NCBI RefSeq assembly: GCF_003351345.1
Contig: NZ_QQTO01000012.1
Span: 186,001-250,000 of the forward strand
From: Allobosea caraganae
GTDB taxonomy: Bacteria; Pseudomonadota; Alphaproteobacteria; Rhizobiales; Beijerinckiaceae
DNA length: 64,000 nt
Direction: 5' to 3'
Shown: in pieces, positions 16,965-56,403 of the stretch
Position numbering within the stretch: the first letter of the stretch is position 1
Layout: each line of letters opens with the position of its first letter
Position numbers and translations under genes: made by a program
Notes under the pieces: model-generated
What the model was told of the DNA's origin: nothing
What the model saw: only the letters and a program-made list of their open reading frames with translations
The model's database searches: none

Positions 16965-17423
16965 ATGCTCGATACGACCGACCGCCGCATGCTCGCCCTC
17001 CTGCAGGAGGATGGCCGCATCACCAACCAGGACCTGTCGCAGAAGATCGGGCTGTCGCCGACGCCCTGCCTGCGCCGGCTGAAGCGCCTGGAGGAGAGCG
17101 GCGTGATCCAGGGCTATTCGGCGATCGTCGACCCCAAGGCCTATGGCCTGCCCTTCAGCGTCTTCGTCTCGATCCGGCTGTCTCAGCAGACGCAGGACAA
17201 CATCGCCGAGTTCGAGAAGGCGGTCGAAAGCTGGAACGAGGTGGCCGAGTGCTACCTGATGACCGGCTCGCAGGACTACCTGCTGCGCGTGCTGACCGAC
17301 GGGATCGAGGGCTATGAGCGCTTCCTGAAGCAGAAGATCACGCGGCTGAAATGCATCCAGTCGGTCGAGTCGAACTTCGCCCTCGGCACGATCAAGAAGC
17401 GCATCGGCCTGCCGCCGATCTGA
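16965..17423 (+). CDS. Lrp/AsnC-family regulator
   Basis: A 152-residue regulator with an N-terminal winged helix (LQEDGRITNQDLSQKIGLSPTPCLRRLKRLEESG) and a C-terminal RAM effector domain (SVFVSIRLSQ ... TGSQDYLLRV). It is divergent from the PLP lyase across a 151-bp intergenic region and very likely controls it in response to an amino acid. It starts at ATG 16965 behind GAGGAG. Confidence 0.92.
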   Translation: MLDTTDRRMLALLQEDGRITNQDLSQKIGLSPTPCLRRLKRLEESGVIQGYSAIVDPKAYGLPFSVFVSIRLSQQTQDNIAEFEKAVESWNEVAECYLMTGSQDYLLRVLTDGIEGYERFLKQKITRLKCIQSVESNFALGTIKKRIGLPPI

Positions 17424-17441: not shown

Positions 17442-17491
17442 AGCCCTCATCCTGAGGAGCCGCTTTGGCGGCGTCTCGAAGGATGAGGGCT
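17442..17491. repeat. palindromic repeat family C, solo copy 1
   Basis: A 50-bp hairpin AGCCCTCATCCTGAGGAGC...AAGGATGAGGGCT lies between the converging AsnC-type and DUF900 genes, where it may act as a two-way terminator. It matches the copy at 56355-56403 and half of the dimer inside xdhA. Confidence 0.85.
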
Positions 17492-17525
17492 GTGGCTCCA
17501 GTATGAGGGCGTGGTTCCAGTGGCC

Positions 17526-18518
17526 CTAACCGCCGGCGCGCTCGACCGCCCGCGCCACGACCTGCGTGACGCCGCTATTCGACAGGAACAGGCTGTGCCG
17601 CAGCACGCTCCAGCCGCGGCCCGAGGTGTCGGCGACGCGGACGCCGAGCGCTTCCAGCCGCGAGCGCTCGGCCGAACCGGCGCGCGCGATGCCGCCGGCG
17701 ATGCGCGAGGAGATCGCCAGCGCCCGGTCGCCGGGATCGACGATCAGGGTCATGCGCTGCGCCAGCGAGCCGAGCTTGGTCACCGTCTGCTCGAAGGCGT
17801 CGATGTCGACATCGGGCGAGGCGAGCACGATGGCGCCGAGATGGGCGGCGACCTCCGGCGTATCCCTGAGCTCCCGCAGCGCCTCCAGCGTCAGGAACGA
17901 GCCCATCGAATGGGCGACGAGGTGGATGCGGCCTACGGTCGGGTTCGCAGCCAGCGCCCGCAGCGTCTGCACGAGGCCATCGCGCGACCAGAGCGCGCTT
18001 TCGCGATCATAGCCGTAGCCCCAGAGGCTGGCGCTCGACGGCCAGGTGAAGAGCGCCGTGCGGCCCTGGAAATGCAGCGCGTGCGAGAGCTGTCCGGCAT
18101 TGGTCGCGGCGGATTCGAAGGTCTCGTTGAAGCCGTGGATGTAGAGCAGCACGTCGCGGCCGGTGACCGCCTCGGCAAAGCGCTGCGCCGGACTGCTCGA
18201 CGTCTCCTTGACCATTCCGAGCACGGCCCAGTCGCCACTCACGGTCGAGGCTACCTGGCCGACGATGCCGCGCCCGGGCGGCGACAGGCGCATCTCGGCG
18301 AAGGTCAGGCCGGAGCCGCGCTCCGAACCGAAGAAGGGGCTGCGGTCGCCGACGGGCTTGCGCGTCGTCGCGACCAGTAGGATCGGCTCCTTGCCGAGCG
18401 CCGAGGCATCGGCCCGGGTCGGTTCCTCGAAGGGCGAGACGGCAGCCTCGGTCTGCGCGCAGGCGGCGAGCGCGAGCGACATCAGCGGGGCGAGCAGGAC
18501 AAAGCGACGGGACGGCAT
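17526..18518 (-). CDS. DUF900 alpha/beta hydrolase lipoprotein
   Basis: The 330-residue protein has a lipoprotein signal with lipobox LAAC near residue 19. The alpha/beta hydrolase core has DVLLYIHGFNETFE as oxyanion region and HSMG as nucleophile elbow (LVAHSMGSFLTLEAL). This is the DUF900 pattern of esterase/lipase-like proteins. It is followed about 140 bp upstream by a second DUF900 lipoprotein of similar plan, so the two look like a tandem duplication. Substrate unknown. Confidence 0.85.
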   Translation of the reverse strand: MPSRRFVLLAPLMSLALAACAQTEAAVSPFEEPTRADASALGKEPILLVATTRKPVGDRSPFFGSERGSGLTFAEMRLSPPGRGIVGQVASTVSGDWAVLGMVKETSSSPAQRFAEAVTGRDVLLYIHGFNETFESAATNAGQLSHALHFQGRTALFTWPSSASLWGYGYDRESALWSRDGLVQTLRALAANPTVGRIHLVAHSMGSFLTLEALRELRDTPEVAAHLGAIVLASPDVDIDAFEQTVTKLGSLAQRMTLIVDPGDRALAISSRIAGGIARAGSAERSRLEALGVRVADTSGRGWSVLRHSLFLSNSGVTQVVARAVERAGG

Positions 18519-40357: not shown

Positions 40358-41959
40358 ATGCGTGAGAGATTGCGCTTCTATTTCGGCGACAAGCTGGTCG
40401 AGATCGCGGCCTGCGATCCGACGCTGACGCTGCTCGACTGGCTGCGGCTGGAACGGCGCAAGACCGGCAGCAAGGAAGGCTGCGCCGAGGGCGATTGCGG
40501 CGCCTGCACCGTCGTGATCGGCCGGCTCGACCAGGGCCGGCTGCGCTACGAGGCGATCAACGCCTGCATCCGCTTCCTGCCGACGCTGGACGGCTGCCAT
40601 CTGCTCACGGTGGAGCACCTGAAGGCCGAGAACGGCGCGCTGCATCCGGTGCAGCAGGCGCTGGTCGATTGCCACGGCTCGCAATGCGGCTTCTGCACGC
40701 CGGGCTTCGTGATGTCGCTGTTTGCGCTCTGGCTGAACGAGCCGAACCCGAGCGTGGCTCGGATCGAGGACGCGCTGGCGGGCAATCTCTGCCGCTGCAC
40801 CGGCTATGAGCCGATCATCCAGGCGGCGCAGCGCCTCTACGAGCGGACGAACCGCCGGGGCGACCCCTTCGCGCTGAAGGCCTCGGCGATGACGGAGCGG
40901 CTGCGCGATCTGGCAGACGGCGAGACGCTTTCGCTCGGCGACGGCACGCGCCGCTTCTTCGCGCCTGCGACAGTCGGCGCCCTGGCCGATCTCGTCAGCG
41001 CTCACCCGCAGGCCGTGCTGGTCGCGGGAGCGACCGATGTCGGGCTCTGGGTCACCAAGGGCATGCAGCAGCCGGACGCCGTGATCTATCTCGGCCGGCT
41101 CGACGAGTTGCGCGGCATCTCCGACGAGGGCGGCCATCTGCGCCTCGGCGCGATGGTCAACCATATCGACACCCGCACGGCGCTGGCCGCGCTCTCTCCG
41201 CAGCTCGACGAGTTGATGCGGCGCTTCGGCGGTGAGCAGGTGCGCAATGCCGGCACGATCGGTGGCAACATCGCCAATGGCTCGCCGATCGGCGACCTGC
41301 CGCCGGCCCTGATCGCGCTCGGCGCGACGCTGGTATTGGTGCGAAAAACGCCCTCCAGCCCTCATCCTGAGGAGCCGCGTAGCGGCGTCTCGAAGGATGT
41401 TCCAGAGGCCACTGGAGCATCCTTCGAGACGCGCTCTGCGAGCGCTCCTCAGGATGAGGGCTCGGGTGGGATCGAGCGTAGGAAAATCCTCCTCGAAAGC
41501 TTCTTCCTCGACTATCGCAAGCAGGACCGGAAACCGGGCGAATTCGTCGAGGCCGTGCTGGTGCCGAAGCTGCCGGGCGATGCGCTGTTCCACATCTCAA
41601 AAATCTCGAAGCGCTTCGACGAGGATATCTCGGCGCTATGCGGCGCCTTCCTGCTGCGGCGGGATACGAGCGGAAAAATCAGCGAGGCGCGGCTCGCCTA
41701 TGGCGGCATGGCCGGCATTCCGAAGCGCGCGGCGGCAACTGAGGCGGCGCTGATCGGGCGCGACTGGGACGAGGCTGCGGTATCGGCCGCCATCGCCGCC
41801 CTGCCCCAGGATTTCACGCCGCTGACCGACATGCGCGCCTCGGCCGGCTACCGGCTCAAGGTCGCCGGCAACCTGCTCAGGCGCTTCCTGATCGAAACCA
41901 CGGAACCAGCGGTCGAGACCCGCGTCGCCGGCCTGCTCGCGGAGGCCGCCCATGGCTGA
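40358..41959 (+). CDS. xdhA: xanthine dehydrogenase small subunit (FeS/FAD), with in-frame repeat insertion
   Basis: The 533-residue subunit has two [2Fe-2S] domains: CAEGDCGAC with the nearby cysteine, and GSQCGFCTPGF / GNLCRCTGY. The FAD domain follows (VLVAGATDVGLW). Around residues 334-369 the sequence SSPHPEEPRSGVSKD ... SAPQDEG is encoded by the 106-bp repeat at 41357-41462, inserted between the LVLVRK strand and the LLESFFLDYRK segment. The frame stays open. Its stop overlaps the xdhB start by eight bases. It shuttles electrons from the XdhB Mo site to NAD. Confidence 0.93.
   Translation: MRERLRFYFGDKLVEIAACDPTLTLLDWLRLERRKTGSKEGCAEGDCGACTVVIGRLDQGRLRYEAINACIRFLPTLDGCHLLTVEHLKAENGALHPVQQALVDCHGSQCGFCTPGFVMSLFALWLNEPNPSVARIEDALAGNLCRCTGYEPIIQAAQRLYERTNRRGDPFALKASAMTERLRDLADGETLSLGDGTRRFFAPATVGALADLVSAHPQAVLVAGATDVGLWVTKGMQQPDAVIYLGRLDELRGISDEGGHLRLGAMVNHIDTRTALAALSPQLDELMRRFGGEQVRNAGTIGGNIANGSPIGDLPPALIALGATLVLVRKTPSSPHPEEPRSGVSKDVPEATGASFETRSASAPQDEGSGGIERRKILLESFFLDYRKQDRKPGEFVEAVLVPKLPGDALFHISKISKRFDEDISALCGAFLLRRDTSGKISEARLAYGGMAGIPKRAAATEAALIGRDWDEAAVSAAIAALPQDFTPLTDMRASAGYRLKVAGNLLRRFLIETTEPAVETRVAGLLAEAAHG
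41357..41462. repeat. palindromic repeat family C, inverted dimer inside xdhA
   Basis: Perfect 19-bp ends AGCCCTCATCCTGAGGAGC / GCTCCTCAGGATGAGGGCT enclose a second inverted pair (GTCTCGAAGGATG / CATCCTTCGAGAC). Two family C units facing each other, in the coding frame of xdhA. Confidence 0.92.
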
Positions 41960-44294
41960 CGCTCGCAAGCGGCTGGAGATGGAAACACGGCGCGGCCCGA
42001 TCGGCAGCGCCAGCCCACACGACTCGGCTGCCAAGCAGGTCGCGGGCGAAGCCATCTATATCGATGATATCGCCGAGCCCGCCGGGCTGGTCCATGCCTG
42101 CCTCGGCCTCGCCCAGATCGCGCATGGCAGGCTGATCTCGCTCGACCTCGCGCCCGTGCGCGCGGCTTCTGGCGTGCTCGCGGTGCTGACGGCGGAGGAT
42201 ATTCCCGGCGCCAACGACATCTCCTCGACCCATCGCCATGACGAGCCAGTCTTCGCGACGGAAACGATCCTGCATCACGGCCAGCCGCTCTTCGCGGTGG
42301 TGGCCGTGACGCGCGATCAGGCACGGCGGGCGGCGATGCTGGCGAAAGCCGTCTACGAGGAGGCCAAGCCCAATCTGGACGTCGCCGCGGCGCGCGCTGC
42401 CGGCGGCGATCTCGTCACCGATCCGCTCAAGCTCGAACGCGGCGATGTCGCGGGCGCGCTTGCCGCCAGCCCGCGCCGGCTGAAGGGCTCGATGGCGATC
42501 GGCGGGCAGGACCATTTCTACCTGGAAGGCCAGATCGCACTCGCCATCCCCGGCGAGGACGAGGACATGCTGGTGCATTCCTCGACCCAGCATCCGAGCG
42601 AGGTCCAGCACATGGTCGCCGCCGTGCTTGGCGTCGGCTCGCATGCGGTGACGATCGAGGTCCGGCGCATGGGCGGCGGCTTCGGCGGCAAGGAGACACA
42701 ATCCAATCTCTTCGCCGTCGTCGCGGCGCTCGCGGCCCGCAAGCTGAAGCGGCCGGTCAAGCTCAGGCCCGACCGCGACGACGACATGGTGATCACCGGC
42801 AAGCGCCACGACTTCGTCTGCGACTACGAGATTGGCTTCGACGACGCGGGCCATATCCTGGCGGTCGATGCGGTCTATGCGGCGCGCTGCGGCTGGAACG
42901 CCGACCTCTCCGGCCCGGTCACGGACCGCGCCTTGTTCCACATGGATAATTGCTATTTCTACCCGGCGGTAAGAGGCCGCTCCGAGCCGCTGCGCACGCA
43001 TACCGTCTCGAACACCGCCTTCCGCGGCTTCGGCGGGCCGCAGGGCATGGTCGGGGCCGAGCGCTTCATCGAGGAGGTCGCCTATGCGACCGGGCTCGAC
43101 CCGCTCGAGGTGCGCAAGCGCAATCTCTATGGCGATGCGGGCCGGGACGTCACGCCCTATCACCAGCAGGTCGAGGACAACATCGCCGGCCATGTCATCG
43201 CCGAACTGGAGCGCAGTTGCGATTACCGGGCCCGGCAGGCAGCGATCCGCGAGGTCAACCGCACGAGCAAGGTGATCAAGCGGGGCATCGCGCTGACGCC
43301 GGTCAAGTTCGGCATCTCCTTCACCGCGACCTGGTACAATCAGGCGGGAGCGCTGGTGCATGTCTATACCGACGGCACGGTCATGCTGAACCATGGCGGC
43401 ACCGAGATGGGCCAGGGGCTCTACATCAAGGTGGCGCAGGTCGTGGCGCACTCGTTCGGCATCCCTCTCGACCAGGTCAAGATCACGGCGACCACGACCG
43501 GCAAGGTGCCGAACACCTCGGCCACCGCGGCCTCCTCCGGCTCCGACCTCAACGGCATGGCGGCGCTCGACGCCTGCGAGACGATCAAGCAGCGGCTGAC
43601 CGCCTTCGCCGCCGAACGCTGGCAGGTAGCGCCGGAAGCCGTCGCGTTCCTGCCCGGCTGCGTCAGGATCGGCGCGCAGGAGATGAGCTTCGCCGAGCTC
43701 GTGGCCGCCGCCTATATGGGCCGCGTCCAGCTCTCGGCGACCGGCTTCTACGCGACGCCAAAAATCCATTGGGACCGCAAGGCCGGGCGCGGCCATCCGT
43801 TCTACTATTTCGCCTATGGGGCGGCGGCAGCCGAGGTCGCGATCGATACGCTGACCGGCGAGTACAAGGTCGAGCGCGTCGACATCCTGCATGATTGCGG
43901 CACGTCGCTGAACCCGGCGATCGACAAGGGCCAGATCGAGGGCGGCTTCATCCAGGGCATGGGCTGGCTCACGACCGAGGAACTGGTCTGGGACGAGAAG
44001 GGCCGGCTGCGCACCCACGCGCCCTCGACCTACAAGATTCCCGTCGCCTCCGACCGGCCCCGCATCTTCAACGTCGCATTGCTGGAGAACGCGCCGAACC
44101 GCGAGCCGACGATCCACCGCTCCAAGGCGGTCGGCGAGCCGCCGCTGATGCTGGCGATCAGCGTGCTGCACGCGCTCTCGGATGCGGTGGCGAGCGTGGG
44201 GGACTATCGAGTGTGCCCGAGGCTGGACGCTCCGGCGACGCCGGAGCGGGTGCTGGATGCGGTCGAGCGGGTGCGGGCGGAGGCGGCGCCATGA
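41952..44294 (+). CDS. xdhB: xanthine dehydrogenase large (molybdopterin) subunit
   Basis: A 780-residue molybdenum subunit. It has the glycine-rich GGGFGGKE Moco loop, FRGFGGPQGM, and the late motif VGEPPLMLAISV carrying the catalytic glutamate. It oxidises xanthine to urate. The ATG at 41952 overlaps xdhA by eight bases and its stop overlaps the xdhC ATG by four. Confidence 0.95.
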   Translation: MADARKRLEMETRRGPIGSASPHDSAAKQVAGEAIYIDDIAEPAGLVHACLGLAQIAHGRLISLDLAPVRAASGVLAVLTAEDIPGANDISSTHRHDEPVFATETILHHGQPLFAVVAVTRDQARRAAMLAKAVYEEAKPNLDVAAARAAGGDLVTDPLKLERGDVAGALAASPRRLKGSMAIGGQDHFYLEGQIALAIPGEDEDMLVHSSTQHPSEVQHMVAAVLGVGSHAVTIEVRRMGGGFGGKETQSNLFAVVAALAARKLKRPVKLRPDRDDDMVITGKRHDFVCDYEIGFDDAGHILAVDAVYAARCGWNADLSGPVTDRALFHMDNCYFYPAVRGRSEPLRTHTVSNTAFRGFGGPQGMVGAERFIEEVAYATGLDPLEVRKRNLYGDAGRDVTPYHQQVEDNIAGHVIAELERSCDYRARQAAIREVNRTSKVIKRGIALTPVKFGISFTATWYNQAGALVHVYTDGTVMLNHGGTEMGQGLYIKVAQVVAHSFGIPLDQVKITATTTGKVPNTSATAASSGSDLNGMAALDACETIKQRLTAFAAERWQVAPEAVAFLPGCVRIGAQEMSFAELVAAAYMGRVQLSATGFYATPKIHWDRKAGRGHPFYYFAYGAAAAEVAIDTLTGEYKVERVDILHDCGTSLNPAIDKGQIEGGFIQGMGWLTTEELVWDEKGRLRTHAPSTYKIPVASDRPRIFNVALLENAPNREPTIHRSKAVGEPPLMLAISVLHALSDAVASVGDYRVCPRLDAPATPERVLDAVERVRAEAAP

Positions 44295-48008: not shown

Positions 48009-48096
48009 CCGTCATTGCGAGCGCAGCGAAGCAATCCAGGGGCCTCACGCACTCCCTCTGGATTGCTTCGTCGGCTGCGCCTCCTCGCAATGACGG
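48009..48096. repeat. palindromic repeat family B, copy 2
   Basis: CCGTCATTGCGAGCGCAGCG ... TCGCAATGACGG between the two permease genes. The right arm is imperfect (an extra TCGGCTGCGCCTC), so the hairpin is partly degenerate. Confidence 0.85.
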
Positions 48097-51641: not shown

Positions 51642-51886
51642 CGCGGGGAACCCCTCTCCTGTAAGGAGAGGGGCAGGGGTGAGGTGTAGGCCGTTGGACG
51701 GTTGAGCGGCGACCTGACCGCCGCCGTGATTGCGAGCGTAGCGAAGCAATCCAGACTGTTCCGCTTGGCGGCCCCTGGATTGCTTCGCTGCGCTCGCAAT
51801 GACGGAGAGAGCACTCGGTTCAGCCTCGCTGGTGTTCTGGCCTACACCTCACCCTGCCCTCTCCTTACAGGAGAGGGTTCCCCGCG
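51642..51886. repeat. family D repeat interrupted by family B repeat
   Basis: Outer arms CGCGGGGAACCCCTCTCCTG ... CAGGAGAGGGTTCCCCGCG make a family D element. An 82-bp family B copy (51724-51805) sits in its middle, after GACCTGACCGCCG, where the uninterrupted copy at 37843-37990 has other sequence. Confidence 0.88.
51724..51805. repeat. palindromic repeat family B, copy 3 (nested)
   Basis: CCGTGATTGCGAGCGTAGCG ... CGCTCGCAATGACGG, inserted inside the family D element. Slightly degenerate left arm (TGATT for CATT). Confidence 0.85.
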
Positions 51887-56354: not shown

Positions 56355-56403
56355 AGCCCTCATCCTGAGGAGCCGCGGAGCGGCGTCTCGAAGGATGAGG
56401 GCT
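56355..56403. repeat. palindromic repeat family C, solo copy 2
   Basis: AGCCCTCATCCTGAGGAGC ... AAGGATGAGGGCT between the converging PilZ and monooxygenase genes. Confidence 0.85.

Follow-up and report, generated by a model that had tools for sequence, protein, structure and literature searches.

A repetitive extragenic palindrome (REP)-type repeat has probably inserted into an exposed beta-turn in the FAD domain of XdhA, the small subunit of xanthine dehydrogenase, in Allobosea caraganae, where it would be translated with the enzyme, and this turn appears to tolerate in-frame insertions and to have taken them up more than once. The repeat lies in the window, the whole stretch of 64,000 nucleotides that was analysed (contig NZ_QQTO01000012.1 of assembly GCF_003351345.1, positions 186,001 to 250,000). 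The host genome is referred to as G000, and the repeat as family C. In-frame insertion of REPs is already known; what is unusual is that one turn of one enzyme repeatedly houses them within one genus, and from two families, C and H, that are otherwise extragenic. The xdhA case itself is a confirmed, functional-looking in-frame REP insertion.

The palindrome and its family

The earlier note placed a 106-bp palindrome with perfect ends in frame inside xdhA, and both points are borne out: the 19-nt outer arms are 100% complementary, and the xdhA reading frame (533 aa including the insert) is uninterrupted across the palindrome (Table 1). Its size estimate holds for the 106 bp and falls short for the residues added (given as about 36), since XdhA is 41 aa longer than insert-free relatives (533 vs 492), because 17 nt of extra sequence come on top of the palindrome; without the 106-bp element the turn would still have 17 nt more than the turn of 10 residues found elsewhere. 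The two solo hairpins between genes that were said to carry the same sequence, at 17442 and 56355, were both recovered.

Table 1. Coordinates of xdhA, the inserted palindrome and related features in the window
Feature	Position	Strand	Evidence or remark
xdhA, xanthine dehydrogenase small subunit (2Fe-2S + FAD domains)	40358..41959	+	TIGR02963 equivalog; PDB 2w3r/1jro
Residues KTPS, from strand end (LVLVR) to repeat	41345..41356	+	
106-bp dimer of the family C palindromic repeat (inverted pair of hairpins), read in frame	41357..41462	.	arms, end-motif copies, RNA fold, open ORF
Outer arm, 19 nt	41357..41375	+	perfect complement of 41444-41462
Inner inverted repeat, 24-nt arms	41385..41432	+	arms 41385-41408 / 41409-41432, 92% complementary
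Outer arm, 19 nt	41444..41462	+	
Right flank of insert (GGIERR)	41463..41482	+	resembles congeners' 14-residue insert-free turn
xdhB, molybdopterin-binding subunit, intact	41952..44294	+	TIGR02965 1319.7 bits
Family C solo hairpin (monomer form)	17442..17491	.	no in-frame read-through (coding test)
Family C solo hairpin (monomer form)	56355..56403	.	no in-frame read-through (coding test)

A 16-nt end motif of family C occurs four times in the window with zero mismatches (17445, 41360, 41444 on the minus strand, and 56358) and six times with up to three mismatches, against 1.03 expected, a count that none of 100 shuffles attained. With up to one mismatch there are 179 matches in the 6.17-Mb genome and none for the reversed control; on this sequence evidence family C is a high-copy REP-type repeat. 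Sixty loci were fetched from G000 and yielded 56 copies with both ends, made up of 52 dimers (100-139 bp) and four single hairpins (48-54 bp). The single hairpins could come from dimers by deletion between AGGATG repeats, and the xdhA insert of another species, G020 (L042), has the single-hairpin form (51 nt). The hairpin tips of the G000 copies (L001-L030) vary widely and stay self-complementary (CGC-GTA-GCG, GAGC-TTTA-GCTC, GGGC-TGTA-GCCC), as if rewritten through hairpin-templated copying. Folded as RNA, the 106-nt palindrome gives a single hairpin of -92.3 kcal/mol (z -13.55; none of 200 shuffles equally stable), in which both family C heads pair with the opposite ends.

The XdhA protein

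XdhA scores 630 bits against TIGR02963 (xanthine_xdhA, cut-off 467) in a match split into two stretches, and the PDB homologue 2w3r aligns to residues 14-329 and 371-519 with nothing in between. The insert sits where it had been described, in the FAD domain, with a core strand before it and the LLESFF segment after it. In an AlphaFold2 model built from a 40-row alignment (mean pLDDT 84.8), two segments fall below a pLDDT of 50: residues 336-369, on the beta-turn that joins strands 324-330 and 372-378, and C-terminal residues 523-533. A Foldseek search with this model ranks the Rhodobacter capsulatus enzyme first (2w3r/1jro, TM by target 0.91/0.93). The insert is thus predicted to form a disordered loop on an otherwise intact fold, and the suggestion that the subunit may still fold is probably correct; XdhB is intact, as had been stated.

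Outside the turn, dN/dS of xdhA is 0.226 between G000 and its sister G024. Over 14 hand-chosen pairs it ranges from 0.098 to 0.263 in the nine pairs with at least one insert carrier, versus 0.113 to 0.207 in the five carrier-free pairs, and by these ratios the gene is still under purifying selection. With an intact predicted fold and purifying selection, xdhA has the look of a functional gene; the simplest reading of the insert, from the model, is a floppy loop that is tolerated.

Distribution of the inserts

Each species of the genus was represented by one genome, and an xdhA match was found in 66 of 67 genomes; the copy in G032 is truncated where its contig stops, so that 65 genes are complete. 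The alignment of close relatives that the earlier note proposed reveals that the A. caraganae insert is no one-off: 16 of the 65 carry an in-frame insert at the same FAD-domain turn, between the strand ending in LVL and LE.FF, and 49 have none. Seven inserts belong to family C (G000, G003, G002, G031, G018, G014 and G020) and nine to a second family, H, whose peptide is RHCEERSDEAIQ or a variant of it (G038, G057, G011, G010, G051, G063, G005, G004 and G023). The elements are 51-124 nt long, and the occupied turns exceed the plain turn by 23 to 46 residues.

All 16 inserts are a multiple of three in length and free of stops. This regularity bears on whether the peptide reaches the finished enzyme at all. 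A near-perfect 106-nt hairpin could in principle be a good RNase III substrate or a bypass signal, and the insert might then be removed from the mRNA or the polypeptide, or skipped by the ribosome; such a loss is very improbable, since it would demand neither frame nor absence of stops, yet every insert keeps both.

Repeats in general can confuse assemblies, and the insert might be an assembly error or xdhA a pseudogene. This is improbable in the extreme: the turn is occupied in 16 genomes, in two of which (G014 and G063) it was found on two contigs each, and a dead gene does not fit the intact xdhA and xdhB frames or the purifying selection on xdhA.

The plain turn is 10 residues long, the length also found in R. 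capsulatus. Among 58 genus genes that could be parsed it has 10 residues in 21, 14 in 19 and 15 in two, and holds an insert in 16; seven divergent genes have a 10-residue turn by eye, which brings the genes with an outgroup-type turn to 28 of the 49 without an insert. Two of the 14-residue turns, in G049 (L075) and G046 (L085), stand beside those of the family C carriers G014 and G018 and show A-K-A-x-P and D-G residues.

A homologous segment of the same length in distant genera, which had been named as the observation that would speak against an insertion, was absent. Eighty more distant alphaproteobacterial XdhA loci among the matches listed (46-58% identity, several from MAGs, placed outside the genus by title and identity) were considered; all 77 that parsed have the plain 27-residue spacing, and one of the three unparsed loci (L149) has a plain turn by eye. 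Under other genus codes of the same order, the turn is plain at all 11 loci read (10 by script, L278 by eye). These come from an order-wide scan with a match in 142 of 249 genomes, which alone is no proof that inserts are absent, because second pieces of the match mostly fall below the E-value cut.

Read-through of other copies

The coding test required an open, coding-like frame on both sides of a copy. In G000, one of 70 family C copies is read through, namely the one in xdhA, and none of 42 family H copies; the search of the genome for family C inside other coding sequences, also proposed earlier, gave xdhA alone among the copies tested. The corresponding figures are one of 32 family C copies in G002 and one of 27 family H copies in G005, again both in xdhA, so that 171 tested copies in three genomes give three in-frame read-throughs, all in xdhA. 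Random positions passed the test far more often, at 1448/2335 (G000), 1022/1334 (G002) and 1114/1307 (G005), or 62-85%. The G000 control, drawn from family C loci, gave its 62% at the 120-nt setting, and 1104/2361, 1532/2355 and 1573/2352 at the other settings; in G002 and G005 the test pooled two settings. Tested copies of families C and H other than those in xdhA keep out of coding frames.

The family C copies tested in G000 came from 100 exact matches listed of the 179, in contig order, with their neighbours and the window; the later part of contig C38, contigs C39-C42 beyond the window and one-mismatch matches lay mostly outside. A few further intragenic copies could exist, because the coding test misses some coding sequence and covers part of the copies. 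If the test is relaxed to ask for coding-like flanks in any frame of one strand, L206 passes too, as does the solo hairpin at 17442, the latter lying between the same-strand ORFs 16965-17423 and 17511-18380. A peptide scan of G000 produced 129 matches. Several fall in long open frames, one of which, at C42:136331 (603 aa), was outside the tested set. Long open frames were discarded as evidence of coding, as those at C22:281097 (498 aa, L201) and C12:6982 (599 aa, L193) fail the coding test.

One turn, two families, 16 of 65 genomes, a very stable hairpin, and no in-frame read-through outside xdhA among the 171 tested copies are what would be expected if the inserts were kept as beneficial, with the mRNA hairpin or the added loop altering xdhA-xdhB expression, stability or activity. 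Such a benefit is improbable: 49 of 65 genomes manage without an insert, the sequence, length and family of the inserts vary, dN/dS is similar with and without them, and the loop is predicted to be disordered.

Tolerance is the simplest cause. A REP-type repeat of family C would have entered the exposed turn and be translated as part of the enzyme; the turn would tolerate a disordered excursion, allowing frame-keeping insertions to survive there, and insertions elsewhere in genes would be purged. Mere tolerance does not account for the lack of inserts in other variable parts of XdhA; the length before the turn varies by five residues (58 genes), yet no insert is found there. A more tentative reading is that the turn may be a recurrent docking site for REPs, at which elements of two families arrive, are lost with short scars left behind and are replaced, because they prefer the site as a DNA target or because selection rewards their presence there. 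If true, the turn would be a natural experiment in extragenic repeats turning into protein.

Two properties of the target site were examined. Within 15 nt on either side of the 16 inserts, a search for target-site duplication saw none, the longest shared string averaging 3.12 versus 3.10 after permutation (162 of 300 permutations as high). An intrinsic hairpin at the empty turn was rejected as the attractant: in 21 short-turn genes a median of 0.57 of windows were at least as stable, and the turn is not special.

History of the inserts

In an XdhA tree computed with the turn left out, carriers are spread across the branches. Parsimony counts 14 changes between the states none, C and H on the best tree and 13-15 across 1000 bootstrap trees; a minimum of 11 remains if all but the well-supported branches are collapsed into soft polytomies. 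These changes may mix gain, loss and allele exchange. Within the set of carriers, neither the C nor the H label shows clear clustering (66 and 81 of 500 label shuffles were equally low).

A rival account has one old insertion per family: the C and H alleles of xdhA would each have arisen once and been handed on by descent and by recombination between congeners, with loss and allele exchange producing the scatter. Several observations lean this way. In all seven family C inserts the junction spacing is nearly common (17-20 nt extra) and the right flanks are alike, a pattern better explained by a single C insertion that spread through descent or recombination than by repeated random hits. The family H inserts of G038, G057, G051 and G005 differ from one another by only 0.011-0.046, the first two and the last two being in different clades; this near-identity is not decisive, because resident copies in G000 reach 0.046-0.057. 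The left 60 bp of the H carrier G010 are closest to those of three other H carriers (0.967). Insert-free turns of 14-15 residues (21 of the 58 parsed), such as those of G046 and G049, could be scars of a lost insert, as their residues suggest.

A single insertion per family is nevertheless unlikely. Loss would repeatedly have to restore the 10-residue outgroup turn seen in 28 of 49 insert-free genes. The H inserts of G010, G004 and G023 lie at distances of 0.18-0.29 from other normal-length H inserts (0.32-0.39 from the lengthened insert of G063). The sister gene of the G000 xdhA (100/97) belongs to G024 and is without an insert; G024 has four C end-motif matches versus 147 in G000, and across the four genomes that share a clade with G000 C ends are nearly missing (0, 0, 1 and 4 matches). 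A recombination tract carrying the insert was also sought and rejected, since on either side the gene most similar over the adjoining 60 bp has no insert for 10 of the 13 carriers compared, the left side of G010 excepted. By distance, C inserts are about as near to their closest resident copies as to one another, and H inserts are partly one lineage.

We therefore favour more than one insertion into the tolerant turn, with C and H arriving separately and the H inserts of G010, G004 and G023 probably doing so as well; loss and allele exchange between congeners would then produce the remaining scatter. C carriers are richer in C matches (p 0.0027) and H carriers in H matches (p 0.0055), versus cross-family controls of 0.086 and 0.32, all with the xdhA copy counted in and without phylogenetic correction; a sign test of the same link on independent pairs was not significant, with too few informative pairs.

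Comparison with known repeats

REPs of the CGTC superfamily are defined, in the available part of PMC3733652, by a head (CGTC, TGTC or CCTC) outside the stem pairing, A/T at the first two stem positions, a stem of 8-9 bp, a loop of 4-5 nt and a short unpaired CCA tail, and they occur mostly as head-to-head dimers; some Bradyrhizobium repeats have other loop sizes. Families C and H share the head as a motif (CCTC and CGTC, respectively), which is unpaired at best in the C monomer, and by eye the A/T stem start (ATCCT...AGGAT in C, ATTGC...GCAAT in H). In H, GCAAT is followed by CCAG, whereas in C, AGGAT is followed by GNTCCAG, with the CCA shifted by three bases. Their hairpins look longer than 8-9 bp and bulged, with variable tips in C. 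The G000 copies of family C are mainly dimers (52/56), with the heads outermost. Family C is a likely CCTC-tagged relative of the CGTC superfamily.

CGTC REPs are described in the same source as mostly intergenic, at times in frame in genes, and chiefly alphaproteobacterial, with no transposase gene found associated with them. C and H are likewise mostly intergenic; here two families share one loop of one gene in many species. The claim that no counterpart was established in this order does not stand, as PMC3733652 has, in the part available, CGTC REPs in Bradyrhizobium, which should belong to the same order as the window's host, and intragenic REPs in several bacteria. It also mentions recB of Xanthomonas campestris and X. 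oryzae, in which differing REPs occupy roughly one position; that case concerns two species, and xdhA two families in 16 of 65 genomes.

The likeness to Rickettsia palindromic elements (RPEs) is closer than the earlier note supposed, since RPE-4 and RPE-6 are assigned to the CGTC superfamily, the head motif of which C and H carry, in the accessible text of PMC3733652; this kinship follows that paper's classification. RPEs, as far as PMC2229807 was available, are 105-146 bp long, form a long stem-loop and have open frames that join in frame with those of conserved enzymes, as here, where the insertion is in a conserved protein gene and in frame in 16 of 16 cases. They are known from 19 reading frames according to the accessible account, whereas the tested C and H copies are read through in xdhA only. 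For a Rickettsia guanylate kinase that contains an RPE, PMC2229807, in the portion available, reports translation and enzyme activity, together with an altered substrate affinity.

A literature search found no report of a recurrent landing loop used by two repeat families, none of five insert peptide strings, and none joining xanthine dehydrogenase, repetitive extragenic palindromes and insertion; in the accessible text of PMC3733652, the supplementary gene list aside, the terms xanthine and xdhA are absent. REPs are named as extragenic, and their movement and function are unsettled, above all for the CGTC kind. A turn with alignable codons on both sides lets occupied sites be compared with vacant ones and shows junctions and perhaps losses, all of which are rare for intergenic copies, and the carriers form a ready set of natural enzyme variants for asking whether repeat-born peptides are neutral.

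REPINs are inverted REP pairs dispersed through a genome and tied to RAYT transposases. Family C likewise forms inverted pairs, but G000 has no match to the Y1 (RAYT-type) transposase family PF01797, and a RAYT transposase was rejected as the mover of the repeats there. PF01797 is present in six of 67 genus genomes. The Y1 transposases L267-L270 include those of G005, G051, G063 and G048; these four genomes make up one xdhA clade, and three of them are H carriers.

Repeats related to family C may extend to another genus, as a 2.8-Mb plasmid record of Methylobacterium bullatum (NZ_LR743510.1) holds 30 family C-like places (best identity 76.6%). The window, for which the earlier note names family C only, holds family H as well: the H end motif (12-mer, up to one mismatch) forms three inverted pairs there, at 2242-2325, 48010-48095 and 51725-51804. 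In G009 the H end motif occurs in direct orientation about 90-120 bp apart, in runs at C1:64602-64802, 794400-794848 and 985699-985903 and at C8:179046-179375; the matches listed for other genomes are mostly isolated.
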